A stretch of DNA of 64,000 nt, from NCBI RefSeq assembly GCF_039655865.1, contig NZ_JBBYXL010000010.1, positions 124,001 through 188,000 of the forward strand, given 5' to 3'. Below the pieces are notes generated by a model. It saw nothing but the letters and a program-made list of their open reading frames with translations. It ran no database searches and was not told where the DNA came from. Source of the DNA: Prosthecobacter sp. SYSU 5D2 (GTDB lineage: Bacteria > Verrucomicrobiota > Verrucomicrobiia > Verrucomicrobiales > Verrucomicrobiaceae). The translations under genes were made by a program, and so were the position numbers. Of this stretch, positions 1 to 13,801 are shown one piece after another (the stretch's first letter is position 1; each line of letters begins with the position of its first letter).

Positions 1-1982
1 AAGACATGATGGCCCCCAGTGATGTGGTGATCAAGAACGAGTTTGAGAGCATCACGAAGCCGGAAACGCTTTATCCCGTCATTGAGAAGCTGGATCTGCA
101 AAAACGCTGGGCGCTGCCCAACCGGCAGGCGGCGCTCTCGAAATTGAAAGGCAATCTGGACACGCAGTCGAGCGTGCGTTCGGATTTTGTCGTCATCGAG
201 TTTTTTGATCCGGATCCGGTGCTGGCGGCGGAGGTGGCCAATGCGGTCTATCAGAGCTACATGACACGCCGGGTGGAGGTGGAATCCAAGCAGAAGCAGG
301 ATGCCCTGGCCATGCTCGGCAAGCAGATATCCGAGCAGGAACAGCTGCGGGACCAGGCGCGGCTGAAAATGCAGGAAGCCCGGAAAAAGGGGAACATTGT
401 CGGGGAGTGGTTTTCCAGTGGTACGAATTCCACCGCGCCCGGGGCGAACCTGCGCACGACGGAGGATTCCATGGTCATGACGCGCGAGCAGGCGCTGCTG
501 CAGGCGGATCTGGAGGTGCAGTCGCTGCGGGCAGAGATCGAGGAACTCAGCAAGCTGGAGGGAGATGAACTGGTTTCGCGAGCATCGGGCCTGAAACTGG
601 AGAATACCAATGTCACAAGCATGATGGCAGAGCTGAACAAGCTGCAGGTGACACGTGAGGGTCTGGTGAATGCCGGGCGGGGACGTAAGCACCCGGAGGT
701 GATGGGGGTGGACAGCCAGATCGTCCTGTCCAAACAGCTCATCCTGGATGCGGTCAAAGCGCACCTGGCGGCCTTGCAGACGCGGCTGGACTTTGCGCAG
801 AAGCGTTATGAGGCCCTGAAAAATTCCAATGAGGATGCTAAGGCGGAGATGTTCGACCAGCAGTCGGCACAGAATGATTACAAGACGGCGGTGGATGATG
901 TGGCCTACATTGAGAACCTGCTTCTGCAGCTCAAGTCCAGCTACTTTGAGACCAAGGCCGGGCTGGAGCTGGTGAAATCTCCCGCCACCCTGTATGCAAA
1001 GGCGGAGCCTGAGGGCAAGCCGGCCAAGCCCAATGTGGCGCTGAACCTCGCGCTGGGCGGGGTGCTGGGGCTGATGCTCGGGGTGGGGCTGGCCTTCTTC
1101 CTGGAGTACATGGACACGTCGGTGAAGAGCCTGGATGATGTGGAGCGTTTCCTGGGTGTGCCGGTGCTGGCGGTCATTCCCAAGGACGTGGCTGTTTTGC
1201 ATCGTGCCAGCGGCTTTAACCCGGATGCGGAGGCCTACCGAATTTTGCGGACTAACATTGAGTTTAACAGAAGGAATCCGGATGCGAATTGCATCACTGT
1301 GACCAGCGGCGGTGCCGGGGAAGGGAAGTCCACCACGCTTTGCAACCTGGCCTTTGTCTGTGCGCAAGGAGGCTACAGCGTGCTGCTGATTGATGCGGAT
1401 CTGCGCCGTCCGCGCATGCACACTCTGTTTGATGTCAGTAACGCAGTCGGCCTGACCAATTATCTGACCACGAATGTGCAGCTGGAGGAGGTGGTGGTGC
1501 GCACGCCGGTGGATAACCTGTATTTCCTGCCCAGCGGCATGCTGCCGGCGGACAGTGCCGGAGTGCTGAACTCCCAGCGGATGTCCGAGCTGATTGCCGA
1601 TGCGAAAAGCCGATTCGACCTAGTGCTCATTGATTCACCACCCATTCTGGGGGTCAGCGATGCATCGGTGCTTTCCAATGAGGCGGATCTCACACTCATC
1701 GTGGTGCAGCATCGCAAGCTGCCCCGTCACATGCTGATGCGGGTTAAGCAGACGGTGGAAAATGTCGGTGGTACGGTCCTGGGCGTGGTGCTGAACAATG
1801 TGGATCTGCGCAGCGACTCGCAGTACCAGTACTACACCAGCTACTACACTTATTACTCGCCTAACAACACGGCGGCTCCGGCGGGCAGCAAACCTGAAAA
1901 GCGTAAAAAACAGGTCCAGCCGGGGCATGTGGCCCAGGCATCCCCTGCACCTTCGCAGACTCCCCGTGGCGATCTTTTTTAA
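1..1982 (+). CDS. Wzc-like polysaccharide co-polymerase / bacterial tyrosine autokinase (5' partial)
   Basis: Inner-membrane chain-length regulator fused to a BY-kinase, acting in export of exopolysaccharide or capsule. The frame is open from the window edge; numbering here starts at the first ATG (position 6), but the first transmembrane helix and early Wzz region are missing, so the true start lies outside. Seen: coiled-coil periplasmic part (about residues 90-320), a second membrane helix near 345-368, then the kinase with Walker A SGGAGEGKSTT (about 433-443), Walker A' LLIDADLRRPR (about 462-472) and Walker B LVLIDSPP (about 540). The tail holds a tyrosine cluster (about 605-618, YQYYTSYYTYY), the expected autophosphorylation site. 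The export gene starts 18 bases downstream, so they are probably one operon. Confidence 0.92.
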   Translation, partial: DMMAPSDVVIKNEFESITKPETLYPVIEKLDLQKRWALPNRQAALSKLKGNLDTQSSVRSDFVVIEFFDPDPVLAAEVANAVYQSYMTRRVEVESKQKQDALAMLGKQISEQEQLRDQARLKMQEARKKGNIVGEWFSSGTNSTAPGANLRTTEDSMVMTREQALLQADLEVQSLRAEIEELSKLEGDELVSRASGLKLENTNVTSMMAELNKLQVTREGLVNAGRGRKHPEVMGVDSQIVLSKQLILDAVKAHLAALQTRLDFAQKRYEALKNSNEDAKAEMFDQQSAQNDYKTAVDDVAYIENLLLQLKSSYFETKAGLELVKSPATLYAKAEPEGKPAKPNVALNLALGGVLGLMLGVGLAFFLEYMDTSVKSLDDVERFLGVPVLAVIPKDVAVLHRASGFNPDAEAYRILRTNIEFNRRNPDANCITVTSGGAGEGKSTTLCNLAFVCAQGGYSVLLIDADLRRPRMHTLFDVSNAVGLTNYLTTNVQLEEVVVRTPVDNLYFLPSGMLPADSAGVLNSQRMSELIADAKSRFDLVLIDSPPILGVSDASVLSNEADLTLIVVQHRKLPRHMLMRVKQTVENVGGTVLGVVLNNVDLRSDSQYQYYTSYYTYYSPNNTAAPAGSKPEKRKKQVQPGHVAQASPAPSQTPRGDLF

Positions 1983-2000
1983 ACGGGTGTATATTGGATC

Positions 2001-2570
2001 ATGATTATGAAAACACTGCTTTCCCTCCTGGCCGCTGCGGCGGTGGGGCTGCCTTGTGCGTATGCCCAAAACGGCGAGCTTCCGCTTCGTCCGGGTGACC
2101 GCATCACCATTTCCGTGGGGGCGATTCCGGACAACGAAGTGCCGCAAATACGTGGTGTCTATACGGTCAGTGACGGGGGGACCATCAACCTGCTGCACAT
2201 CGGTGAGGTGCGGGCCAGCGGTCTGAAACCTTCGACGCTTCAGCGCACCATTGAGCAGACCTACATCAGCCGGGAGATCTACACCCGGCCAAACGTGCTG
2301 GTTTCCATTGACAGCGTGGGGGATGCGACGATGCGGCAGGTGACGGTGACAGGCGTGAACAAGCCTGGCGGGGTGCCTTATCAACAAGGGATGACGCTTT
2401 CCCGCGCGATCATGTCGGCTGGCGGGCCGACCCCGTTTGGCAGCATGAAAAAGGTGAAGCTGCTGCGTGCCGGGCGGGCACCCACCATTCATAATCTTTC
2501 CAACGGCATCGGCAATCCTGCCGTGGATGTGCTGGTGCAGCCGGATGACCAGATCATCGTGCCTGAATAA
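2001..2570 (+). CDS. Small polysaccharide export (OPX/Wza-like) protein with one SLBB domain
   Basis: Periplasmic or outer-membrane partner of the Wzc-like kinase just upstream. A signal peptide (about residues 1-22, ending AYA) is followed by a Poly_export domain starting LRPGDRITISVG and an SLBB segment around TVTGVNKPGGVPYQQGMTLSRA. At 189 residues it is about half the length of Escherichia coli Wza. It lacks a lipobox cysteine and any C-terminal stretch that could form the membrane-spanning helix, so it probably belongs to the short OPX class that needs a separate outer-membrane pore (inference). The ATG at 2001 is followed by a second in-frame ATG at 2007; either could be used. Confidence 0.9.
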   Translation: MIMKTLLSLLAAAAVGLPCAYAQNGELPLRPGDRITISVGAIPDNEVPQIRGVYTVSDGGTINLLHIGEVRASGLKPSTLQRTIEQTYISREIYTRPNVLVSIDSVGDATMRQVTVTGVNKPGGVPYQQGMTLSRAIMSAGGPTPFGSMKKVKLLRAGRAPTIHNLSNGIGNPAVDVLVQPDDQIIVPE

Positions 2571-3071: not shown

Positions 3072-3857
3072 TCACAGCTTCCGCTTGTACCCGTCGCAGC
3101 GGTTATGCCAGCCAGCGAGCCAGCGCTGTTCTTTGCGCGCAGCGGGAGCATTTTGTACGCGGCGCGAGAGGACGGCTTTGGCGGATTCGGCAAAACCGGC
3201 CGGGGTTGGCTGCTTCATGCCTTCCAGGACTTGCAGGAGGCCCCAGCCCTGGCCGTTATAGCGCTCCGTAGGGGCGGTGCCCTCACCTTTGAAATTGACG
3301 TAATCAATGAGGCAGAACGCTCCCTCCGGGGTGGCCAGGAGAGCATCGAAGTGAGCCTGAACCAGACTGGGCTTTTTGCTGCTGGCCTTCATTTTCGGCA
3401 GGGCACGCTGCAGGCGGGCGATGATGAATTCCGTCTGCAGGCCGACGGTTTTGGAAAGGGTGCTGCGCAGTTCCGTCTGGCGGGGACCGTTTTTGTCCGC
3501 CTCAAAGGCGGCCTTTCTGGGCCAGGGGCATGGGCCCTGGGTCCAGGCAGGCATGGCCACGCCACGTGATTGCAGGAAGGCGGCGAGGGGCGGGAAGCTT
3601 TCTTCAAACGGGCCTCTTTTCCCGGCCGGATACCAAATGAAATGGCCGATGCCCAGGGAGGCGAAGGCCTCGCCAGCATTCCAGCTGGTCAGGCCGGCGA
3701 CGGTGCCTGCGCATTCGTTCTGCCAGATACGCTGTCCCACCCGCTGCAACTGGGCGGCGCTGAGCTGGACGCCTGCGCTGGGTGCCGAAACTGGGGCGGT
3801 ACAGGCTCCCAGAAGAAAAATTAGCCCAGAAAGTTTTAAAACTCTGCGGAGATTCAT
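3072..3857 (-). CDS. Conserved lipoprotein of unknown function
   Basis: 261 residues. The N-terminus has a lipoprotein signal with lipobox LLGAC (cysteine near residue 19), so it should be anchored to a membrane. The body has a striking Trp/Gly-rich motif around residues 46-75 (NECAGTVAGLTSWNAGEAFA followed by SLGIGHFIWYP) and a C-terminal WHNRCDGYK. Several aromatic and charged residues in that motif suggest an enzyme, perhaps cell-wall active, but I do not recognise a catalytic family. It is convergent with the cysteine-cluster gene and its start faces the promoter of the FHA gene. Confidence 0.75.
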   Translation of the reverse strand: MNLRRVLKLSGLIFLLGACTAPVSAPSAGVQLSAAQLQRVGQRIWQNECAGTVAGLTSWNAGEAFASLGIGHFIWYPAGKRGPFEESFPPLAAFLQSRGVAMPAWTQGPCPWPRKAAFEADKNGPRQTELRSTLSKTVGLQTEFIIARLQRALPKMKASSKKPSLVQAHFDALLATPEGAFCLIDYVNFKGEGTAPTERYNGQGWGLLQVLEGMKQPTPAGFAESAKAVLSRRVQNAPAARKEQRWLAGWHNRCDGYKRKL

Positions 3858-4012: not shown

Positions 4013-7000
4013 ATGCCTTATCTGGCCTTCAACCTCAATGACGGAAACGAATTCGTCTTCGACATCCTCGAAGAACGTCTCTCCATTGGCAGGGACTCCA
4101 AGAATGACATCGTTATTGACAATACTTATATCTCCGGGTTTCACGCCGAGTTCATCCGTCAGGCGGATGGGGGTTACGAATTGCTGGATCTGAAGTCATC
4201 GAATGGTACCTTCGTGAATGGGAAGCGCATTGAGCGTACCGGAGTGAAAGGGGGGGATAAAATCCGTTTTGGCCAGTTGGATTCCCGTTTCCGGGAGCGC
4301 CCGCCCAAAGGCATGGCTCCAGCCGCAGAAGTGAAATCCCCCTCCACTGGCAAGGGACAGCCGGTCCGCACAGACGGACGGCGCGGCGATACAGAATCAA
4401 TCCCCGCCAGGGACACGGCGGCGAAATCCGACACCAGTCCAATAGCCCCTGTCAAGGTCCCGCTTGTCCGGACGGAAGGAACAGGAGGGGAGGGGCCATC
4501 GCTGGCTGCTCCACAGACCAGCCCCATCCAGCGGCCTGCGGGGCTGGACCCTGCTTTGCAAAAACAGACGGAAGAGTTACGGCTGGAAACGACCGCGCTG
4601 AAAAAAGAGCGTGACCTTTTGCGGGAAGAAAATGAAAAGGAGCGCGGACGTCGCGAAGAGATGCTGGAGTTGGAAAAGCGCATCGAAGAGCGGCAGAAAT
4701 CCGCTGAGGAGCTGGAGACCCGGATCGCCGGGCTAAAGGCGACGCTGGGCAGCGCGGAGGCGGACATCTCCCAACTCGAGATCAAACGACGGGAGGCTGC
4801 CAACCTACACAGCCAGGTGGAGTCCTCCCGCAGTGAGCTGGCCAAAGTCCAGGGGGACATCGCGATGGCGGCCAAGAGTCTTCAGTCTCTCCACATGGAG
4901 GCTGACAAATCCAACGCTGAGCGCAGCACAATGGTGAAAGAAAGGGAGGTGGCTCTGGCGGAACTGGCCGCCTTGCGTGAGCAGATCCAGCAGGCCGAAG
5001 CAAAGACAAAAGAAGCCATTGAGAAGCTGACGGAGGCGCAAAAATCTGAAAGCACGGACGTTCAAGGCCGCAGCGCAGAATTGCGGGCGCTGGAAGAGCA
5101 GGCCGTGGTCCGAAAGATGGAGATCAAGGACCTGGAAGGGAAACTTGAAGAGCTCCGTCAGGAAGAGGCGAAACTGGCCGTGAGGCTGAAGGAACAGCAG
5201 ACCCTCAACGCGGACATGCAGCAACTGGAAGCCGAGGTCAAAAAGCTGCAGACACAAAGAGACCAGCTTCGTGAACGGGAGCAGAATGCGGAGGCGGAAG
5301 CCGCACAGAAGCTGGCCGGACTGGAAGAAAAAGTCCGCGTCAAGACAGACGAGTTGCAAGCCTTGGAACGGCGCTCGGCCGATCTCACCAACAGGCTCGA
5401 CGATCTGGCTGCAGCAGATACGCAGCTCAAGAGTTCCAGTGATGCTCTGAAAGCGGTGGAATCCCACAAAGCTGAACTGGCTGCCTCCATCACCCAGATG
5501 ACCCGTGAGCGGGATGCCCTCTCGCGTGATCTGCTGGAAAGAACGGAGAAAGGCCGTGCGCAGCACACGCTTACCCAGACGCTTGGCAGCAGACGCGAAG
5601 CCCTGGAGAAAGAAATCCGCAGTCTGGAGGAGCAGAAAGAAACAGTCTCCACCGAGCTGGGCAAATCTCGTGAAACCCTCCGCCAGACAGAAGCCACCCT
5701 GGAGGACTGCCAGCAGCAGGTCAAAGCCGCTGAGGCCAAAACCCATGAGCTGGCTGGCAGCCTGAAAACCCAGCTGGAAGCCAGCCAGCAGGAGCTCACG
5801 TCGGCTGAGGCCAGACTGGAAAGCCTGAAAGGCCAGATCGCAGAAAAGGAAAAGCAGTTTGCCGAACTTGGCGAGTCTGAGAAAAAGCTGGCGGAGGTCC
5901 GGGCAGAGCTTGCCACGGCCAAGCAGGACCAGGAGAAGGCCAAAGGCGAATGCCAGCGTCTGCAGACGGAGCAGTCCGGGCTTGAAAACCGGGTGACTGT
6001 GCTACGCACCGACGCGGACAAACTGCAGTCCGAGTTGGCCGGCAAGCTGAAGGAACTGGCTGACAGCGAAGCCCGTATGAGCCAGCTCACCGGGGAAACA
6101 GCCGGGCTGGAGATCAAGGTCAAGGAACTCGCGTCAGTGGAAGAGCGGCTGGAACAAAGCCGTGCTTTGCTGGCCAAAAGCCAGGAAGAGCATGAAAAAC
6201 TGACTGCGATTCTGCTGCCCATGGCGGCAGAGCGGCAGGAACATGAAAAGGTGCTGCCCGGCCTCAAGGCGGAAACCGACAGCCTGCGTGCGCATATGTC
6301 CGCGCTGCTGCGTGACAAGCAGGCCACGACTGCCGCCCTGGAGAAGGCGCAGACGGACCGCAAGGCGGCCCTGGACCAGACGGAAGCCCTGCGCACGGAA
6401 GCTGCCAACCTGGAAAAGCTGCTCCACGACAAACGCAACAATCTGGAGGCTGAAACGAAGGCCAAACTGGCGGATGCAAGTGCTGCAGATGCCCGTTTGC
6501 GTGAACTCCAGGCGCAAATTTCCGCCAGCGAAACTCGCACTGCCGAGCTGGCCGGGAAAGAGCAGCAGCTGACCATTGCCAGCGCAGCACTGATTGAGGC
6601 TGAGAAGCAGCGCCAGGCCGAGGAGAAGACCCTGGCGGAGCTGTCAGGACTGCAGGAAAGTCTGCGCAAAGAGATTTCGCGATACGAAGCGGAATCCAAA
6701 ACCCTCCTTTCCCAGATCACTGAACTGGGAAAGAAAGCCAAAGCGGAGGAAACCCGCGCAGGCGATGCGGAGACCCGTCTTCAAAAGGCTACCGCTGCGG
6801 CCCAGTCCACAGAAGCGAAGCGGCTGGAATCTGAAGCCGCCATCGCCAAAGCCCGGGAGGAGGAAAAACTTCTGCGCAAGCAAATCCCGACGCTCAATAC
6901 AGAGCTCGCCGGTTTGCAGGCCATGCTGACCAGCCTCACCAAAGAAAGGGAGGAAGCCTCCCAGTTTGTCACCCGGCTGAATGTCACGACGGAGAATGCC

Positions 7001-8242
7001 AACAAGAAACTGGCTGACGTCCAGCAACAGATTTCCCAGCTTGAGGCTGCCCACCAGGTGCGTGAGGAACGGCTGATGAAAGCCCAGGAGGAGGTGGACA
7101 GGGAAGCCGCCCGGCTGAAAGCAGCCCAGGAAGCCACCCGTGCTGCCGAGCAGTCCCTGCAAGTCCTGGAAAGGGAGGTGCGGGAATCCCGCCAGAGGTC
7201 AGATGCGGCGCGCACGCAGGCCACCGGACTGGAAGCGGAACTGAACACCCGCATGGACCGCGTGGAAAACCTGAAGCTCGAAGAAACACGCCTCCTCAAG
7301 GAAGTGGATTCGCAAAGGCTGGAGGTGCAGAGCAGCAAAGCGGTGCTGGCCGAACTGCAGGACAAAATACGTCAAGAAGAAAGCCGCCTGGCCGAGTTTA
7401 CCCAGACCGGCGGCAAAGTGCTGACACTCGGCGCGGCTCTGGCCGGACTGGAAGCCCGGCAGGGCGAGGTCGGAAAATCCCTGCGGGATGCGGCTGAGCG
7501 GGAGCTGGCCCTGCAAGTCAAGATCAATGCCCTGCAGGAAGCCGTAAACCGGGAATCCGCCCGTGTGGAGCAGGTGAAGAAAGAGCGCACTGCCGTGGAG
7601 GCCGAGCTGGGGACCTACACCCAGCAGGCAGAAAAACAGGCCGCCAGTTTGCAGGCAGCAGAGAGCGAGCAGCGCAAGCGCCTGGCGGACATTGATACCC
7701 AGGTCCGCGAGCACTCCGCCACAGCGGACCGCCTGAAGGCCGAGATCACGTCCCTTCATGACCGTCGCGCTGAGTTTGCGCAGGCTGAAGCGCAGTTGCA
7801 TCACTGGCAGGAGATTGAGGCAAGGCTGCGCGGCCAGCTTCTGGAGCTGGAGGAAAAGCACGAAATCCTCCGCCGCGGACTGGCCACGGAGGAATCCACC
7901 GTGGTCATGTTTGCCCATGACATCATCAAGCGCATTGACCTCATTGATGCGCTCAGCTCCCGCTATGCCGGTCACAATGGAGGTGACGTGGTGGCCCAGT
8001 TGCGCACCTTGCGGCATTCCTTTGAAGACATCCTGTTCCAGCACGGCATCAGCGAATTTGACGTGGGGGGCGGGCTGGAGGTGGATGTGGAGCTGCGCCG
8101 GCGCATCACCGTTGTGGAATCCATCCCTGGTAAAAATAAACCACGCGTGGTGGAAACCTGCCGTTCCGGGTTTATCTACTCCCGCGAGGAAGGCCATGAG
8201 CTCATCCTGCGCAAGGTGGAGGTGAGAACTTCCAGCCAGTAG
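4013..8242 (+). CDS. FHA-domain giant coiled-coil protein (1409 residues)
   Basis: N-terminal FHA domain (about residues 5-80) with the phosphothreonine-binding signatures GRDSKNDIVI and SSNGTFVNG. A Pro/Ser/Thr-rich linker (about 95-180) follows, then roughly 1100 residues of heptad-like Glu/Lys/Ala/Leu/Gln sequence (about 181-1295) typical of a long coiled coil. A non-coiled C-terminal domain (about 1296-1409) ends the protein. No membrane segment or signal peptide is visible, so it should be cytoplasmic. A coil this long could span well over 100 nm, suggesting a scaffold or filament that docks a threonine-phosphorylated partner (inference). An Hsp70 begins 24 bases after the stop. Function unknown. 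Confidence 0.9.
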   Translation: MPYLAFNLNDGNEFVFDILEERLSIGRDSKNDIVIDNTYISGFHAEFIRQADGGYELLDLKSSNGTFVNGKRIERTGVKGGDKIRFGQLDSRFRERPPKGMAPAAEVKSPSTGKGQPVRTDGRRGDTESIPARDTAAKSDTSPIAPVKVPLVRTEGTGGEGPSLAAPQTSPIQRPAGLDPALQKQTEELRLETTALKKERDLLREENEKERGRREEMLELEKRIEERQKSAEELETRIAGLKATLGSAEADISQLEIKRREAANLHSQVESSRSELAKVQGDIAMAAKSLQSLHMEADKSNAERSTMVKEREVALAELAALREQIQQAEAKTKEAIEKLTEAQKSESTDVQGRSAELRALEEQAVVRKMEIKDLEGKLEELRQEEAKLAVRLKEQQTLNADMQQLEAEVKKLQTQRDQLREREQNAEAEAAQKLAGLEEKVRVKTDELQALERRSADLTNRLDDLAAADTQLKSSSDALKAVESHKAELAASITQMTRERDALSRDLLERTEKGRAQHTLTQTLGSRREALEKEIRSLEEQKETVSTELGKSRETLRQTEATLEDCQQQVKAAEAKTHELAGSLKTQLEASQQELTSAEARLESLKGQIAEKEKQFAELGESEKKLAEVRAELATAKQDQEKAKGECQRLQTEQSGLENRVTVLRTDADKLQSELAGKLKELADSEARMSQLTGETAGLEIKVKELASVEERLEQSRALLAKSQEEHEKLTAILLPMAAERQEHEKVLPGLKAETDSLRAHMSALLRDKQATTAALEKAQTDRKAALDQTEALRTEAANLEKLLHDKRNNLEAETKAKLADASAADARLRELQAQISASETRTAELAGKEQQLTIASAALIEAEKQRQAEEKTLAELSGLQESLRKEISRYEAESKTLLSQITELGKKAKAEETRAGDAETRLQKATAAAQSTEAKRLESEAAIAKAREEEKLLRKQIPTLNTELAGLQAMLTSLTKEREEASQFVTRLNVTTENANKKLADVQQQISQLEAAHQVREERLMKAQEEVDREAARLKAAQEATRAAEQSLQVLEREVRESRQRSDAARTQATGLEAELNTRMDRVENLKLEETRLLKEVDSQRLEVQSSKAVLAELQDKIRQEESRLAEFTQTGGKVLTLGAALAGLEARQGEVGKSLRDAAERELALQVKINALQEAVNRESARVEQVKKERTAVEAELGTYTQQAEKQAASLQAAESEQRKRLADIDTQVREHSATADRLKAEITSLHDRRAEFAQAEAQLHHWQEIEARLRGQLLELEEKHEILRRGLATEESTVVMFAHDIIKRIDLIDALSSRYAGHNGGDVVAQLRTLRHSFEDILFQHGISEFDVGGGLEVDVELRRRITVVESIPGKNKPRVVETCRSGFIYSREEGHELILRKVEVRTSSQ

Positions 8243-8266
8243 ATTTCTTTTTTTATCCTTTTTGTT

Positions 8267-9757
8267 ATGGCAGAATACGTTGGCATTGATCTTGGCACCA
8301 CGCTCTCGGGCCTGGCTTATTTGAAACCTGATGGCAATCCCGAGATCGTGCCAAATTCCGATGGGGAGCGTCTGACTCCATCCGTGGTGTTTTTTGAAGC
8401 GCATGAAGATGTGAAACTGGTGGGCAGCCCGGCGCGTGACGGCGGGGAGCCGGACCGCACCATTTTCCAGATCAAGCGTCACATGGATGACCCGGAATAC
8501 CTGGTGGAGATTGACGGCAAAAAGTGGACTCCGGCGGAGATCTCTGCGCTCATCCTGGCCAAACTGAAGCGGGATTGCTCCAAGATCATCGGGGACATTG
8601 AGGAAGTCGTCATCACCGTACCGGCGAACTTCAATGAACTGGCCCGCAAGAGCACCATCGCCGCCGCAGAGATGGCGGGGATGCGCGTGAAGAGGTTGGT
8701 CAATGAGCCGACAGCCGCAGCCGTTTATTATGCGCACAGCCAGAGCGTGCAGGGCCGGATCCTGGTCTTTGATATGGGCGGTGGCACGTTGGATGTGACC
8801 ATCCTGCAGGTGGAAGGCGATAATATCCGCATCCTGACCAGCGAAGGCGCGCGGCACCTGGGCGGCAGCAATATTGATGACATGCTGCTGACGGCTTATG
8901 CGGAGCAGTACACCAAGCAGACAGGTGCGCCGCTTTACAACGAGGAGCGCCACCGCCGCCGCGTACTCCTGGCCACGGAAGATGCCAAGAAGATGCTCTC
9001 CAAGCTCCAGCGTGTGAATGACACGGTGGCCAATGACAAGAACGACGGCCTGGCCCGAATTGACCTGTCACGGGACGCTTTTGAAAAGATGATCCGCCAC
9101 ATGCTGACCCGCACGCTAATGCTGGTGGAGCAGGCCCTGGATTCGGCCAAACTGAAGGTGGGGGACATAGATCATGTGGTCCTCGTCGGCGGTTCCACCC
9201 GCATCCCGAAGGTGAAGACCATTCTGGAGAAGATGTTTTCCAAGACGCCCAAGTCCTGCGGCAATGTAGATGAATGTGTAGCGCTCGGCGCGGCCCTCTT
9301 TGCCAAAAAATCCGCCCGCATCCAGGAGGTCTGCAATGCCAGCTACGGCACGGTGGCCATGGTGTACAACGCCAAGACGGGGGAGGAGAAGCTGATGAAC
9401 TCCGTGGTCATTCCAAAGAACACTCCCATTCCCTGCTCCCGCACCCAGGTCTATCAGACCAGCGAGGACAACGAGCGTGTCATCGAGGTGGACATCACCC
9501 AGGGCGAGGATGAGGACGCCAAATTTGTGGACATCATCGGCCGCATCACTCTGGAGGTGCCGCCGAACCGGCCCAAGGGCTGTGAGGTGGCCGTGACCTT
9601 CAGCTATGATGAAAACCAGCGTGTGCGTGCTCTGGTGCTGGACAAGCAGTCCGGACGCAGCCGTGAGGTGGCGGTGAGCTATAAAGGTGCAGGGGTGCTC
9701 TCCGATGAAGATCTCAAGCGCAAGAGCGCGCATCTGCGCACGATGAGAATCGAATAA
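8267..9757 (+). CDS. Hsp70-family protein lacking the C-terminal lid
   Basis: 496 residues against about 640 for DnaK. The ATPase domain is intact: phosphate 1 motif GIDLGTTLSGLAY (about 5-17), phosphate 2 FDMGGGTLDVT (about 168-178) and adenosine motif LVGGSTRIPKV (about 306-316). A shortened beta substrate-binding part follows (about 370-480), and there is no helical lid or EEVD-like tail. It is therefore a DnaK paralogue, not the housekeeping chaperone. The gene is 24 bases behind the FHA/coiled-coil gene and 34 bases ahead of a small helical protein, which suggests it assembles, remodels or binds the giant coil (inference). Confidence 0.92.
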   Translation: MAEYVGIDLGTTLSGLAYLKPDGNPEIVPNSDGERLTPSVVFFEAHEDVKLVGSPARDGGEPDRTIFQIKRHMDDPEYLVEIDGKKWTPAEISALILAKLKRDCSKIIGDIEEVVITVPANFNELARKSTIAAAEMAGMRVKRLVNEPTAAAVYYAHSQSVQGRILVFDMGGGTLDVTILQVEGDNIRILTSEGARHLGGSNIDDMLLTAYAEQYTKQTGAPLYNEERHRRRVLLATEDAKKMLSKLQRVNDTVANDKNDGLARIDLSRDAFEKMIRHMLTRTLMLVEQALDSAKLKVGDIDHVVLVGGSTRIPKVKTILEKMFSKTPKSCGNVDECVALGAALFAKKSARIQEVCNASYGTVAMVYNAKTGEEKLMNSVVIPKNTPIPCSRTQVYQTSEDNERVIEVDITQGEDEDAKFVDIIGRITLEVPPNRPKGCEVAVTFSYDENQRVRALVLDKQSGRSREVAVSYKGAGVLSDEDLKRKSAHLRTMRIE

Positions 9758-9791
9758 CGCCAGCGGCATCCACCCCCAGCCCAACACCGCG

Positions 9792-10127
9792 ATGTTTAAA
9801 AAAATCCTACAATCCCTGTCGAAGTCCCAGGCTGCCAAACCGGCCGCCGCCCCTGTCAGCAAACCGGCGGAAACCGCCCGGCCCGGTTCTGTCTTGCAGC
9901 GGATGGCTCCTGTTCCGGTAGCTGCTGCGCCCTCAGTCCGCAGCCCGGAAGATCTGTGCGAAATCCCCCCCAAGATGCCGAAGGAACAGATCCAGGCGCG
10001 GCTGAAACTGCTTTACCGCCGTTACAACCGCAGCGCCTCCAGCCTGGATCCCAAGATCCGTGGTGAAGCCGATGCGATGCTGGATGCTATTGTCCGCGTC
10101 CGCGAAAAACACTTTGGAGAGATCTGA
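9792..10127 (+). CDS. Small helical protein, third gene of the FHA-Hsp70 unit
   Basis: 111 residues, not recognised. The N-terminal half is low-complexity Ala/Pro/Lys. The C-terminal half (about 62-111) is predicted by eye to form two charged helices (KEQIQARLKLLYRRYN and PKIRGEADAMLDAIVRVREK). No signal peptide. Its position directly behind the Hsp70 makes it a candidate co-factor or client adaptor, without sequence proof. Confidence 0.7.
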   Translation: MFKKILQSLSKSQAAKPAAAPVSKPAETARPGSVLQRMAPVPVAAAPSVRSPEDLCEIPPKMPKEQIQARLKLLYRRYNRSASSLDPKIRGEADAMLDAIVRVREKHFGEI

Positions 10128-10156: not shown

Positions 10157-13100
10157 CTAGCCTAACAAAAAGCTAAAGTCACTAAGGGTAAGGCCCTGGG
10201 CGAAGCTTTCCTCCCCCAGGATGTCCTGGGCAAGCGCGCCTTTCTGCTTTTGGAGCATGCGGATTTTTTCCTCGATGCTGTCCTTGATGAGCAGGCGGTA
10301 GGCAAACACGGTCTGCTTCTGGCCGATACGGTGGGTGCGGTCAATGGCCTGGGCCTCCACGGCAGGATTCCACCAGGGGTCGTAAAGGATGACGTAGCTG
10401 GCGGCGGTGAGGTTAAGCCCGAACCCGCCTGCCTTGAGGCTGATGAGGAAGATGGCCGGACCGTCATGCTCCTGAAAGGCGCTGACCAGGGCACCCCGGT
10501 CCTCCGTAGCACCGGTGAGAATGAAGGTGGTCCAGCCTTGCTGACTGGTCTCTGCCTGGATGATCTCCAGCATCTCCACGAACTGGGAGAAGACGAGCAC
10601 CTTCTGGCCCTCCTCCATGATGGGCTCCATCTGCTCGATGAGAGCGGCCAGCTTGGCGCTTTCGACCTTGGAGGCGGCGGCTTTCTTTTTGCGCTTGCCG
10701 GGCTGGGCTTCTTCAGGAACGGCGGCCTTTTCCAGGCCGATAAGGCGTGGGTCGCAGCAGATCTGGCGCAGGCGCAGGAGGCTGGTGAGAATGTTAAAAC
10801 GAAACTTGTCTAGCTGGCGGCTGGTTTCGACTTTGAGGAGCTGCGCGCGTGCACGTTTGATCTCCGCCTGGTAGAGGGTGGCCTGGGTGCCTTCCATTTC
10901 CACGATGAGGTCTTCCTCCACGCGGTCCGGCAGGTCGGTGGCGACTTCTTGTTTGGTGCGGCGCAGGAGAAAGGGCTTGGTGCGGGCGGCCAGGCGGCGG
11001 CGGGCCAGCGGGTCCTCGCTAGCATCAAAGATGCGGTTAAAGCTGGCACGGCTGCCGAGGATGCCGGGCATGGCAAAGGCGAAGATGGACCAGAGATCCA
11101 GCAGGCGGTTTTCAATTGGCGTGCCGGTGAGTGCCAGGCGATGCCGGGCATCCAGAGCGCAGGCGGCTTTGGCACTTTGGGAGGTGGGGTTCTTGATGGC
11201 CTGGGCCTCGTCCAAAATGACGGCTCCCCAGCTCACCTCACGGAGGGTTTCTTCGTGGATGCGAAGATGCGGGTAGTGGATGACGAGGAGGTCTGCCTGG
11301 CCATCCAGACCGGTTTTGCCGGCATTGCTACGGTTCCAGACTTCCACTTTCAAGTCCGGGCAGAAGCGGGCGGCCTCGGCACGCCAGTTGTCCTGGACGG
11401 ACTTCGGGCAGACGACGAGCAGTGGTTCCTTTACTTTTTGTTCGGCGCGTAGCCAAGCCATCCAGGTGAGGGCTTGCAGGGTCTTGCCCAGGCCCATGTC
11501 ATCCGCCAGCACGCCGCCGAAGCGGTTGGTGGAGAGGTAGGCCAGGAAATGGAATCCCTCGGTTTGATACTGGCGCAGCGTGGCACTGATCGCGGCAGGT
11601 TGGTCCGGGGTGACGCGGGTTTCGATTTCCTCCAGCCGGCGGCGCACCTGCTGCGCGCGTTCCGCAGGAAGGAGATGGCTGTCACCACGGGCCACACTGC
11701 CGAGCTGCAATGCGTGAAGACGTTGTTTCTCCCCGGTGAGCTGATGGGTGGAGAGGCCCAGATCGGCCAGGTCCTGCTGCTGCTGGGTGGAGAGGTCGAA
11801 TTCAAGCTTCCGCCAGCCTTTGCTCCCCAGCTTGACCCATCTGCCCTTGGCCTTCAGCAGGAGGTCAATTTCTTCTTGAGTCAGGGTGTGGTCGCTTACA
11901 TCCAAGGCCAGGCTGAGATCAAACCAGTCCACACCGCTTTTGGATTCCTCAATGTCCAGGCGCATCGTCCCGGCCACCTTGCCATCGCGAAGGGTGGCCA
12001 GCTCGGCATCCAGTTCCACGTTGATGCCGGGCGGACGGCGGTCCAGCCAGGCGAGGAACTGGTCCGGCCAGTCTTTGCCGACGATGCGTTGTTCCACTTT
12101 TGCTTCGCCGTCGCTGGTGGGGCGCAGGGACATCTGGCGCAACCAGGCCCCTGTCGGGGAAAGGGCGGATTTGTCGAGCTGGATGAGCTGCGCGGAATTC
12201 TTCTGGGAGGCCTGGTGGCGGTAGTGGGTGATCCATTGGCTGCCATTCCAGACCCGGGGTGCTTCCACGCCGCCGAAAGAGGCTTTGGCGTCCAGGCGAA
12301 AGTATTCACTGGGGGAATGGGAATAGCGGTGGATCCCGCTGCGGATGGTAATGTCCGCCTTGACCAGCTTGATTTTCCCGGCCAGCCGGGCCGGTGGTTC
12401 GAGGCCCAGCTTGGCCAGGGCACTGACGCCCTCGCGTGTCTCCAAGGCCTGGGCAGGAATGGTGACCGGCCAGGTTTGCCGTTCATTTTTGAAGGGCCAG
12501 TAAGACAGGGGATAAACCACCTCGCTGGTGACGTAATGCATGGGGCTGCCGGGAAGAATGGCGACGGGCGGTGGCGGTGCTATGCCTTCTGCGGTCAACA
12601 GGCGCAGCTTGTAATTGCCGGTGGCGTCCAGGGCTGGCAGAAGCTCCCATTTCAGGGCTTCTTCAGAAATCTGTACCGGCTCCCCGGAGGCGGAGGCGAC
12701 ATGCAGGAAAAACATGTCCTGACTGCTGATCAGGCGGGCCAGACTGCGGTTCAGGCTTTCTGACATCGCACCAATCTCTGAGCCGATGACTTCGCGGTAC
12801 ATGCCCTGGGCTGACTGCAGCACGATGCTGGAGCCAGCGCTGAGCTGGGGGACTTGTGGCCCGTAAGAAGGGCCATAGGAAGGCCCGTGAGAGGCATTTT
12901 GACTGAGTTCCTTGAGCAGTTTTTGGGTGACTTTGCCAAACTCCGCATCGCCTGGATGACGGACCTGGATCAATGCGGCGCTGGAATGCAGGACGAGGCG
13001 GAGTTCTGGAGCGGGAGCACCGGCTTCCTCCTCAGGCTCCTGCCAGCTGCCGAGATTTTTTTTCCACTCTTCGATCTCCTGAAGGCGCTGCCATTTTTTC

Positions 13101-13801
13101 AGAAGCTCTTTTTGCAGCATTGGGTCCACGACTTCGGGGAGTGGGGGCGGCATCTCCAGGCTGGATTTCTTCATGGCCATGGCCAGGTAGGCGATGAATT
13201 CCCAGAGAGTGGTGGGAGGCAGTTCATCCGGCCACAGGCTGAGCTGACGGTAGCCCCAGTAATTGCTGCGGCCACAGGCCTGATGAATCTCCATTTGATC
13301 CACCAAGGAGGTTTTGTTCAGCCACCAGGGCTCCACTGTAGCGAGGAATTTGAGGGCTGTTTTGTTCAGCTTTTTGCCCACTTTGGCTTCGATCTGGCCG
13401 GCGAAAGAATCGGGAGGAAGGGATGGGACTTCGAATGCCGTGGGTTTTTCCGGTCTGCCTGAAAGAGTGCCGGCTGGGGATGCGACGGATTTGGCATGGC
13501 CAGCGTGTTTGCGCAGTTCCAGGATGACGGCGGCGGCGTGTTTGCAGTCATGTTGGTAGGGGCAGGTGCAGTCTGTGACGGCTTCCGGGCCATCAAAGAA
13601 AAGAGTGGTCGTATAAAGCTTCCCCCCCTGGACCCTGGCCTCCAGCCCCAGCCCGTCCTCCACCCGGCGCAGGCTGCGCACCGCCCGTTCACGCATGAGG
13701 GCCGCACCCCGGCTGACGATGTGAGACTCAAAGAGATTCAGCGCTGCAATGATGGATTCTCTTTGTTCCTGGGTGAGCTGAATGACGGCGGCAGCGGACA
13801 T
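10157..13801 (-). CDS. SWIM zinc-finger SNF2-family helicase
   Basis: 1214 residues. A SWIM zinc finger sits near the N-terminus (about 70-95; CTCPYQHDCKH gives the CxC...CxH pattern). A long middle region follows, then a complete Swi2/Snf2 ATPase: motif I DDMGLGKTLQAL (about 762), motif II DEAQ (about 862), LTGTPIENR motif III, and motif VI RTHRIGQKQ (about 1152). Family members are ATP-dependent DNA or RNA-polymerase remodelling translocases, and the bacterial SWIM-SNF2 subgroup is mostly uncharacterised. A lysine-rich insert (about residues 1040-1055) lies between the helicase lobes. It points towards the FHA/Hsp70 unit but is separately transcribed. Confidence 0.93.
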   Translation of the reverse strand: MSAAAVIQLTQEQRESIIAALNLFESHIVSRGAALMRERAVRSLRRVEDGLGLEARVQGGKLYTTTLFFDGPEAVTDCTCPYQHDCKHAAAVILELRKHAGHAKSVASPAGTLSGRPEKPTAFEVPSLPPDSFAGQIEAKVGKKLNKTALKFLATVEPWWLNKTSLVDQMEIHQACGRSNYWGYRQLSLWPDELPPTTLWEFIAYLAMAMKKSSLEMPPPLPEVVDPMLQKELLKKWQRLQEIEEWKKNLGSWQEPEEEAGAPAPELRLVLHSSAALIQVRHPGDAEFGKVTQKLLKELSQNASHGPSYGPSYGPQVPQLSAGSSIVLQSAQGMYREVIGSEIGAMSESLNRSLARLISSQDMFFLHVASASGEPVQISEEALKWELLPALDATGNYKLRLLTAEGIAPPPPVAILPGSPMHYVTSEVVYPLSYWPFKNERQTWPVTIPAQALETREGVSALAKLGLEPPARLAGKIKLVKADITIRSGIHRYSHSPSEYFRLDAKASFGGVEAPRVWNGSQWITHYRHQASQKNSAQLIQLDKSALSPTGAWLRQMSLRPTSDGEAKVEQRIVGKDWPDQFLAWLDRRPPGINVELDAELATLRDGKVAGTMRLDIEESKSGVDWFDLSLALDVSDHTLTQEEIDLLLKAKGRWVKLGSKGWRKLEFDLSTQQQQDLADLGLSTHQLTGEKQRLHALQLGSVARGDSHLLPAERAQQVRRRLEEIETRVTPDQPAAISATLRQYQTEGFHFLAYLSTNRFGGVLADDMGLGKTLQALTWMAWLRAEQKVKEPLLVVCPKSVQDNWRAEAARFCPDLKVEVWNRSNAGKTGLDGQADLLVIHYPHLRIHEETLREVSWGAVILDEAQAIKNPTSQSAKAACALDARHRLALTGTPIENRLLDLWSIFAFAMPGILGSRASFNRIFDASEDPLARRRLAARTKPFLLRRTKQEVATDLPDRVEEDLIVEMEGTQATLYQAEIKRARAQLLKVETSRQLDKFRFNILTSLLRLRQICCDPRLIGLEKAAVPEEAQPGKRKKKAAASKVESAKLAALIEQMEPIMEEGQKVLVFSQFVEMLEIIQAETSQQGWTTFILTGATEDRGALVSAFQEHDGPAIFLISLKAGGFGLNLTAASYVILYDPWWNPAVEAQAIDRTHRIGQKQTVFAYRLLIKDSIEEKIRMLQKQKGALAQDILGEESFAQGLTLSDFSFLLG

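Follow-up and report, generated by a model that had tools for sequence, protein, structure and literature searches.

The window, a stretch of 64,000 nucleotides from Prosthecobacter sp. SYSU 5D2 (contig NZ_JBBYXL010000010.1), contains three consecutive genes that code for a long protein with an FHA head, a predicted coiled-coil rod and a GrpE-like end, a lid-less Hsp70 and a small J-like protein (Table 1). The three ORFs are found where the first-pass annotation had placed them, with gaps of 24 bases between genes 1 and 2 and of 34 bases between genes 2 and 3. A scan for promoters and terminators found 1 site resembling a promoter (1.2 expected) and 13 resembling terminators (8.6 expected), and speaks neither for nor against an operon since no site falls between the three genes. 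Rfam models at their gathering scores had no match in the window.

Table 1. Genes, domains and motifs of the trio, in positions of the window.
Feature	Position	Strand	Basis
FHA - coiled coil - GrpE-like gene (gene 1)	4013..8242	+	ORF, ATG, 1409 aa
FHA domain, aa 24-87	4082..4273	+	Pfam FHA, E 2.3e-18
Coiled-coil rod (predicted), aa 186-1245	4568..7747	+	heptad periodicity, proline content
GrpE-like domain, aa 1246-1409, with C-terminal LRK(V/A)EV motif	7748..8239	+	Pfam, HHalign, tree
Lid-less Hsp70 gene (gene 2)	8267..9757	+	ORF, ATG, 496 aa
Interdomain linker, clade motif EVCNxSYGT replacing VLLLDVTPL of DnaK	9326..9352	+	alignment of 43 Hsp70s
Small J-like gene (gene 3)	9792..10127	+	ORF, ATG, 111 aa
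Small protein: variable N-terminal half, J-like domain in the C-terminal part, about aa 46-110	9792..10127	+	AlphaFold2, structure matches, profile links
N79-R80-S81 at the HPD position of the J domain	10026..10034	+	alignment

The trio forms one conserved unit, as had been proposed from its tight spacing. Of 141 genomes of the order, 66 have both the Hsp70 and the small gene, side by side in 65 of them; the FHA gene and the Hsp70 are neighbours in 52 of 61. The trio is not a chance grouping, because its genes are found again in tens of relatives. Fisher p values for co-occurrence (1e-32 and 4e-21) take no account of shared descent, and we do not treat them as probabilities. The tally of FHA-GrpE genes retained 71 genomes with strong matches and left out those with weaker matches only, below 76 bits (G002, G028, G031, G035, G061, G083 and G101). 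Two sets of exceptions count against a dedicated set: the FHA-GrpE gene occurs without the module Hsp70 in 10 of the 71 genomes, one of which (G043) has a broken Hsp70 copy adjoining it, and the module Hsp70 is found without a detected FHA-GrpE in 7 of 68, including G007 and G065, where the local FHA gene has no detected GrpE domain at its end. A contig scan across genomes gave, among the matches listed, mostly DnaK-like loci and few useful ones. One weak match of profile A1 in G440 (E 9.4e-4) was judged false, with an internal stop and a Cas9-like ORF nearby by eye.

The FHA domain of gene 1 is a clear Pfam match (PF00498, 66.8 bits against a cut-off of 20.7), and 91-100% of 54 proteins conserve R27, S41, H44, N64 and N69, which we take to be the phosphothreonine-contact residues. 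The link to phosphorylation drawn earlier from this domain is supported: the N-terminus is a predicted phosphothreonine reader and may target the protein to phosphorylated sites. A Yop-YscD Pfam match (aa 16-94) could suggest a secretion system; we rejected this reading, as the match overlaps that of FHA and we saw nothing else in its favour.

After a proline-rich stretch (about aa 97-180), the rod has only 3 prolines in 1060 residues and a hydrophobic signal of 0.62 at a period of 3.5 residues, where shuffled sequences give 0.23 (maximum of 50 shuffles, 0.32), as expected for a coiled coil; SMC-like matches are far below the cut-off. With the coiled-coil rise of 0.1485 nm per residue, it would span about 157 nm. 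Such a long heptad repeat, with an FHA head and a conserved Hsp70 neighbour, agrees with the proposal of a polymerising protein, a phosphorylation-responsive cytoplasmic filament or scaffold remodelled by the Hsp70. However, both the FHA and the GrpE-like ends are found in one ORF in 53 relatives whose whole proteins range nearly ninefold in length, from 276 to 2388 aa, and in the orthologues of 276 and 294 aa both ends remain but the rod is nearly gone. These short orthologues are better explained by a tether of free length than by a polymer, and the far end of the rod protein resembles an Hsp70 cofactor, so we abandon the filament as the main idea and consider it very unlikely.

That far end had been noted as a distinct C-terminal domain of a 1409-residue FHA coiled coil; the architecture was right, while the identity of the domain had been missed. 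Its homology to GrpE is well supported at the sequence level. HHalign against 59 ordinary GrpEs gave 97.3% (E 2.6e-11, 154 columns; reversed control E 0.021), spanning the full helical and beta-wing domain. Pfam GrpE (PF01025, cut-off 25.8) scores the window protein at 20.7 bits by whole-protein hmmscan and 26.8 by frame search, and the C-terminus is above the cut-off in 11 of 13 genus genomes. The module GrpE forms its own clade on a long branch. Searches with its profile recovered 11 ORFs from other phyla which are also hits of the ordinary GrpE profile; within the phylum they gave 11 ORFs, 202 to 347 aa long, at E values of 2.8e-7 to 6.9e-4 or stronger. The profile search of PDB has GrpE (4ani) as its best solved match, at E 0.003 (0.0031), but titin kinase and Src SH3 score close (E 0.0038 and weaker), so this search is indecisive alone and we relied on Pfam and HHalign. 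The structure model is poor (pLDDT 64.6), with helices followed by strands in the GrpE order; Foldseek with this model listed no GrpE among the best 50 of 171 matches, and VIA-align placed GrpEL1 at rank 34 (Z 5.8) over the helical part only. By analogy with GrpE, this end would form a dimer, dock the Hsp70 and exchange its nucleotide.

Gene 2 encodes an Hsp70 (PF00012, 335.7 bits against a cut-off of 20.6, E 5.9e-100), the best conserved of the trio, with a mean column identity of 78% (24 rows) against 54% (29 rows) and 31% (37 rows) for the other two. It is lid-less, as first described: 15 DnaKs extend 108 to 148 residues past its end, and none of the 21 module rows does. The ATPase residues D8, T11, K70, E147, D169, T174 and D176 are kept in all 21 rows, and the changed linker may indicate an Hsp70 without DnaK-type allostery. 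The module Hsp70s group in one clade apart from DnaK (SH-aLRT 100), and we reject an ordinary DnaK locus on this ground; the window protein is also below the cut-offs of the DnaK NCBIfam equivalog (344.9 bits against 822.55) and of the HscA model (290.5 against 708.55). Of the two outcomes that the first-pass annotation had named as fatal to the module idea, rare adjacency in relatives and an Hsp70 grouping with ordinary DnaK orthologues, neither was observed.

In gene 3 no Pfam family was found at E up to 0.01. AlphaFold2 predicts helices at residues 52-55, 64-81 and 87-108, and the first seven VIA-align rows are all J or J-like chains (Z 5.9-6.4), among them chain B of the Tim14-Tim16 entry 2guz, presumably Tim16; these Z values are in the range of common helical arrangements, with unrelated chains next at 5.4-5.6. 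Compared by HHalign with J domains only, the small protein scores weakly (19.6%, E 0.0012), and the profile search of PDB sequences gave nothing convincing (best E 0.14). Further links come from relatives in which the domain is behind TerB. In L190 and L198 the J-like domain follows TerB, beside Hsp70s of the same group, and TerB proteins from one MAG of Kiritimatiellae and one of Planctomycetota connect the small protein to a J domain with HPD behind TerB. Profile A8, used for the J-like domain, matches in register a TerB-DnaJ protein with HPD (Pfam TerB 1.9e-16, DnaJ 8.1e-13), at E 1.3e-4 for one genome, which means about 0.05 such matches expected by chance over 387 genomes. Its best 50 non-member ORFs include 11 J proteins (44 among 5263 ORFs), against 1 of 50 for the reversed profile, and 9 of the 11 share the register within 3 residues while two differ; the hypergeometric p of 1e-13 overstates this, because J proteins are related to each other. 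Another A8 match, in G060 (E 7.6e-4, about 0.4 expected over 387 genomes), was dropped since the 588-aa ORF looks unrelated. The small protein is a candidate J-like domain without HPD, with moderately supported J homology, and we name it J-like instead of classing it among the J-domain proteins. HPD is absent in 43 of 43 small proteins, and N79 is invariant in the 29 aligned sequences, window included.

With a GrpE-like domain at the end of gene 1 and a J-like product of gene 3, the Hsp70 would be the core of a chaperone set. It had earlier been called the filament's own remodelling ATPase; it does appear dedicated, but not as a remodeller added to a filament. We find it somewhat probable that the trio is a dedicated Hsp70 set formed by a lid-less Hsp70, an FHA-tipped GrpE-type exchange factor and an HPD-less J-like partner. 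Its most likely role would be bringing nucleotide exchange by the module Hsp70 to phosphothreonine-marked clients, where we infer the phospho-targeting, the client and the complex. In such a set, the helical stalk of GrpE would have been lengthened into a coiled-coil rod of free length with the FHA reader at its tip. The FHA heads of the dimer would dock on a phosphothreonine mark set by a Hanks-type kinase of the cell (20 kinase domains are over the cut-off). At the opposite end, the GrpE heads would bind the module Hsp70 and carry out its nucleotide exchange on the spot, which would restrict the binding and release of clients to the marked assembly. The J-like protein could fill the J site or tether the client, without the usual HPD-driven stimulation.

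Instead, the GrpE-like end could be a pseudo-exchange factor that only docks the Hsp70, which would then serve passively as a phospho-scaffold or switch and run no chaperone cycle. The missing HPD of the J-like partner, the absence in the Hsp70 of the lid and of DnaK's hydrophobic linker, and the long branch of the module GrpE all agree with it, but intact ATPase residues in every module row and the highest conservation of the trio are not what a passive Hsp70 suggests, and we hold this reading to be unlikely.

The proposed dedicated set resembles DnaK-DnaJ-GrpE in joining an Hsp70 with a GrpE-type exchange factor and a J-type partner, and the genome has its own housekeeping copies of these elsewhere. 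Unlike them, the module Hsp70 lacks the lid and carries a different linker, its GrpE ends an FHA-tipped rod, both belong to separate clades, and the J-like protein has one recognisable domain only, without the HPD of DnaJ. HscA and HscC are also specialised Hsp70 paralogues with their own cochaperone, as in the module, although we know of no FHA-GrpE for either. The mitochondrial import motor Ssc1-Mge1-Pam18/Pam16 likewise has a dedicated Hsp70, a GrpE-type factor (Mge1) and an HPD-less J-like protein. Pam16/Tim16 works with the HPD partner Pam18, according to an excerpt of PMC11349236, whereas no Pam18-like HPD partner is seen in the module, and the import motor has neither FHA nor rod.

The same three chaperone roles are also encoded together by GAP1-N2 GTPase systems, with a dedicated Hsp70, a GrpE and an FNIII-DnaJ, and FHA domains are found in related systems, as stated in an excerpt of PMC7159879. 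The trio could therefore be read as a conflict or defence module of this kind. However, five flanking proteins scanned (three by Pfam, two by NCBIfam) gave no GTPase or FNIII match, and only p261 recurs of nine flanking genes tested, the loci of relatives reaching some kilobases per side. PADLOC on the trio gave only coiled-coil and weak matches. The presence of the Hsp70 and small genes in 28 of 31 genus genomes and an Hsp70 tree that broadly follows the families are as for a core gene, and we consider a defence role highly improbable. The GrpE of GAP1-N2 systems is not described as an FHA fusion in that excerpt (PMC7159879). The first-pass annotation knew of no described system with this trio, and our literature search likewise found no description of an FHA-GrpE fusion.

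The abstract of PMC13254874 ascribes the targeting of Hsp70 machines chiefly to their J-domain partners. In the trio, HPD is gone from the J-like partner, and the domain that probably does the aiming belongs to the exchange factor, which bears it on the other end of a rod whose length evolution has not fixed. If this is true, nucleotide exchange rather than J-driven capture would be the addressed step, and Ser/Thr phosphorylation would be wired directly to a chaperone; borne out experimentally, it would be a new way of aiming Hsp70 at phosphorylated targets. Each of these claims is testable on separately made pieces, since the ends and the Hsp70 are conserved.

Relatives outside the trio architecture suggest where it could come from. 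In L189, L190 and L198 the protein carrying the J-like domain has, by eye, a hydrophobic segment at its start, and the GrpE-like protein is encoded by a gene of its own, which in L198 has no Pfam match. DjlA is a TM-TerB-J cochaperone in the excerpt of PMC11709261, and L190 and L198 are alike in their hydrophobic N-terminus, TerB and C-terminal J-like domain, but they have lost HPD and have an Hsp70 next door, while Verrucomicrobiales retain the J-like domain alone. These arrangements would also agree with a set of cofactors for assembly or for the envelope that descends from a membrane-anchored TerB-J/Hsp70/GrpE system, and in which FHA merely stands in for the lost anchor to localise the protein, with no phospho-regulation; we regard this as quite unlikely given the retention of the phosphothreonine residues of FHA. 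Returning to the dedicated, phospho-addressed set, we tentatively propose, as a possibility short of probable, a long-reach Hsp70 machine that arose in Verrucomicrobiales from a membrane-tethered set of this kind, in which a phospho-anchor took the place of the membrane anchor and the exchange factor came to carry it in place of the J partner. In such a machine, kinases would decide where a private Hsp70 cycles. TerB is joined to a true J domain in L282.

The FHA, Hsp70 and small-protein genes are found where the first-pass annotation had placed them, with intergenic gaps of 24 and 34 bases. The Pfam scan gave an FHA domain for the N-terminal region of gene 1, Hsp70 for gene 2 and no family for gene 3. 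The middle of gene 1 has few prolines and a distinct hydrophobic period of 3.5 residues, in agreement with the coiled coil noticed before, and the Hsp70 indeed lacks a lid, its sequence stopping at the point where the DnaK lid starts.

Features of the window around the trio
Feature	Position	Strand	Remark
Exopolysaccharide chain-length/tyrosine-kinase and export genes	6-2570		Start of window
p261	3072-3857	-	Divergent 261-aa gene, no Pfam match
Gene 1, FHA-coiled coil-GrpE-like	4013-8242	+	1409 aa
Gene 2, lid-less Hsp70	8267-9757	+	496 aa
Gene 3, small J-like protein	9792-10127	+	111 aa
Large Snf2 helicase adjoining the trio	10157-13801	-	Best PADLOC models DpdE and ZorD, matching mainly the C-terminal half; NCBIfam scores under cut-off

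Adjacency was checked in 141 genomes of the order, taken to be Verrucomicrobiales, and bears out the proposal that these genes form one unit. Of these genomes, 70 have the small gene, 68 the Hsp70 (matches with E up to 1e-150) and 71 a strong FHA-GrpE end; all three are present in 60, and another 60 have none. Hsp70 and small gene are adjacent in 65 of the 66 genomes with both, the exception having them at contig ends, and FHA-GrpE adjoins Hsp70 in 52/61, the nine exceptions including one genome (G121) split by a contig break. FHA-GrpE occurs without the module Hsp70 in 10 genomes and the reverse in 7, two of which retain an FHA-coiled-coil gene with no GrpE end detected there.

The module Hsp70 is distinct from DnaK, as had been suggested. 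Its orthologues have about 495 aa and 58 to 95% identity to the window protein, and a tree of 43 Hsp70s unites the 21 module rows in one clade (SH-aLRT 100), separate from 15 DnaKs and from the window genome's own DnaK and second Hsp70. This clade is joined to four Hsp70s adjoining longer J-like proteins, the finer branching order being unsure due to long branches. All 21 rows retain the catalytic residues and the equivalents of DnaK R167 and N170, of the J-contact region. In place of the DnaK linker VLLLDVTPL stands EVCNxSYGT, common in outline to the four joined Hsp70s. Among these four, L190a is missing several catalytic residues.

Conservation in the small protein is confined to the C-terminal 60 residues, the remainder being variable. 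We found this domain outside the order in three loci, each adjoining the same kind of Hsp70: L189 (genome G302), L190 (a Kiritimatiellae MAG, on one contig with L197) and L198 (a Planctomycetota MAG). In these loci it ends a longer protein that, by eye, starts with a hydrophobic segment. Pfam finds TerB in the L190 (E 4.6e-12) and L198 (E 2.6e-7) proteins and none in that of L189; the order hydrophobic segment-TerB-J is that of DjlA, as described in PMC11709261. Each of the three loci also has a GrpE-like gene upstream, recognised by a weak match, and that of L198 has no Pfam match.

A joint profile (A8) matches a G207 protein bearing TerB (1.9e-16) and a DnaJ domain (8.1e-13) with HPD. The small-protein asparagine is aligned over the H of this motif, and the P remains as an insertion. 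The match has E 1.3e-4 per single genome (about 0.05 expected by chance over the 387 genomes searched), and a chance match would hardly fall on a J domain behind TerB. J proteins account for 11 of the 50 best non-member ORFs of A8 (5263 ORFs from 80 scan loci, with 44 J proteins in total), against 1/50 for the reversed profile. The AlphaFold2 model has one short and two long helices (pLDDT about 90). In VIA-align its rows 1 to 7 are all J or J-like chains (Z 5.9-6.4, unrelated chains following at 5.4-5.6), including a DnaK-bound J domain and a Tim14-Tim16 entry; row 1 is the J domain of P58IPK. Foldseek also gives a J domain in the first row, with E 0.75 only. HPD is found in 0/43 small proteins, which we term J-like.

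In the 387-genome phylum sample, the small-protein profile has three matches outside the order (E 1.1e-8, 3.0e-5 and 9.4e-4), and A8 also three, in G302, G369 and G207, the first two being themselves rows of A8. Since such matches are few, the FHA form seems to be a trait of the order. One match of the small-protein profile, in a genome of the phylum, was rejected as false; a 1228-aa ORF, Cas9-like by eye, lies there (L191:2-3688).

Residues 1246-1390 of gene 1 match Pfam GrpE under the cut-off (E 3.5e-4). A search of 19 relatives with the GrpE family put this end above its threshold in 11 of 13 genomes that share the window's genus, each also having an ordinary GrpE; in the other two (G110, G131) the end is present with too low a score. 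HHalign comparison of a profile of this end with 59 ordinary GrpEs gave 97.3% and E 2.6e-11 over 154 columns, against E 0.021 and one column for the reversed profile. Both the module-end and ordinary GrpE profiles match 11 ORFs of other phyla, and within the phylum the module-end profile weakly matches 11 ORFs of 202-347 aa. The module ends form a single clade separate from housekeeping GrpE (SH-aLRT 99). Against the GrpE reading stand a PDB sequence search, in which GrpE 4ani came first with titin kinase only narrowly behind, and a poor predicted structure, with no GrpE among the best 50 of 171 Foldseek rows. In genus g11, 167- and 189-aa proteins with this domain stand alongside the FHA fusion (L066:8051-8554, minus strand; L073:3239-3808, plus strand), and a third, weaker class is found mainly inside ORFs of about 500-670 aa.

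The first-pass annotation read gene 1 as a possible filament or scaffold. Counting the window, 54 proteins have FHA and GrpE-like ends in one ORF; since they vary from 276 to 2388 aa while FHA residues stay conserved in 91-100% of them, a spacer or tether accounts for the variation better than a polymer. GrpE is dimeric, with a long helical stalk preceding the globular end, and stalk extension would be a natural route to reach for an exchange factor. The E. coli GrpE N-terminal tails act on the substrate domain of DnaK, according to PMC12915176. The window genome has 20 kinase domains above the Pfam cut-off and six FHA matches, so a phospho-signal is, judging from its genes, available in the cell.

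The set had been proposed as undescribed, and in titles and abstracts on FHA, GrpE, Hsp70, TerB or J domains, a search covering few subscription papers, we found no description of it. Of what has been described, the GAP1-N2 systems, with their Hsp70-GrpE-DnaJ theme, come closest (PMC7159879). The superfamily of each part is known; the combination and the reader placed on an exchange factor are, within the reach of these searches, new.

Only p261, among nine flanking genes tested, recurs near the trio (19/31 same-family loci, which extend some kilobases on each side). In some genus members a second FHA protein (214-279 aa) is encoded roughly 1 kb ahead of FHA-GrpE (L089:2238-2882, L090:1979-2623, L092:522-1361, L095:14601-15248). 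A further chaperone cluster of the order, with no FHA seen in it, lies at L156:8331-11448 (G003), composed of a J-like ORF (PF00226, E 9e-5, under cut-off), a GrpE-ended ORF (PF01025, E 1.9e-14) and a long-branch Hsp70.
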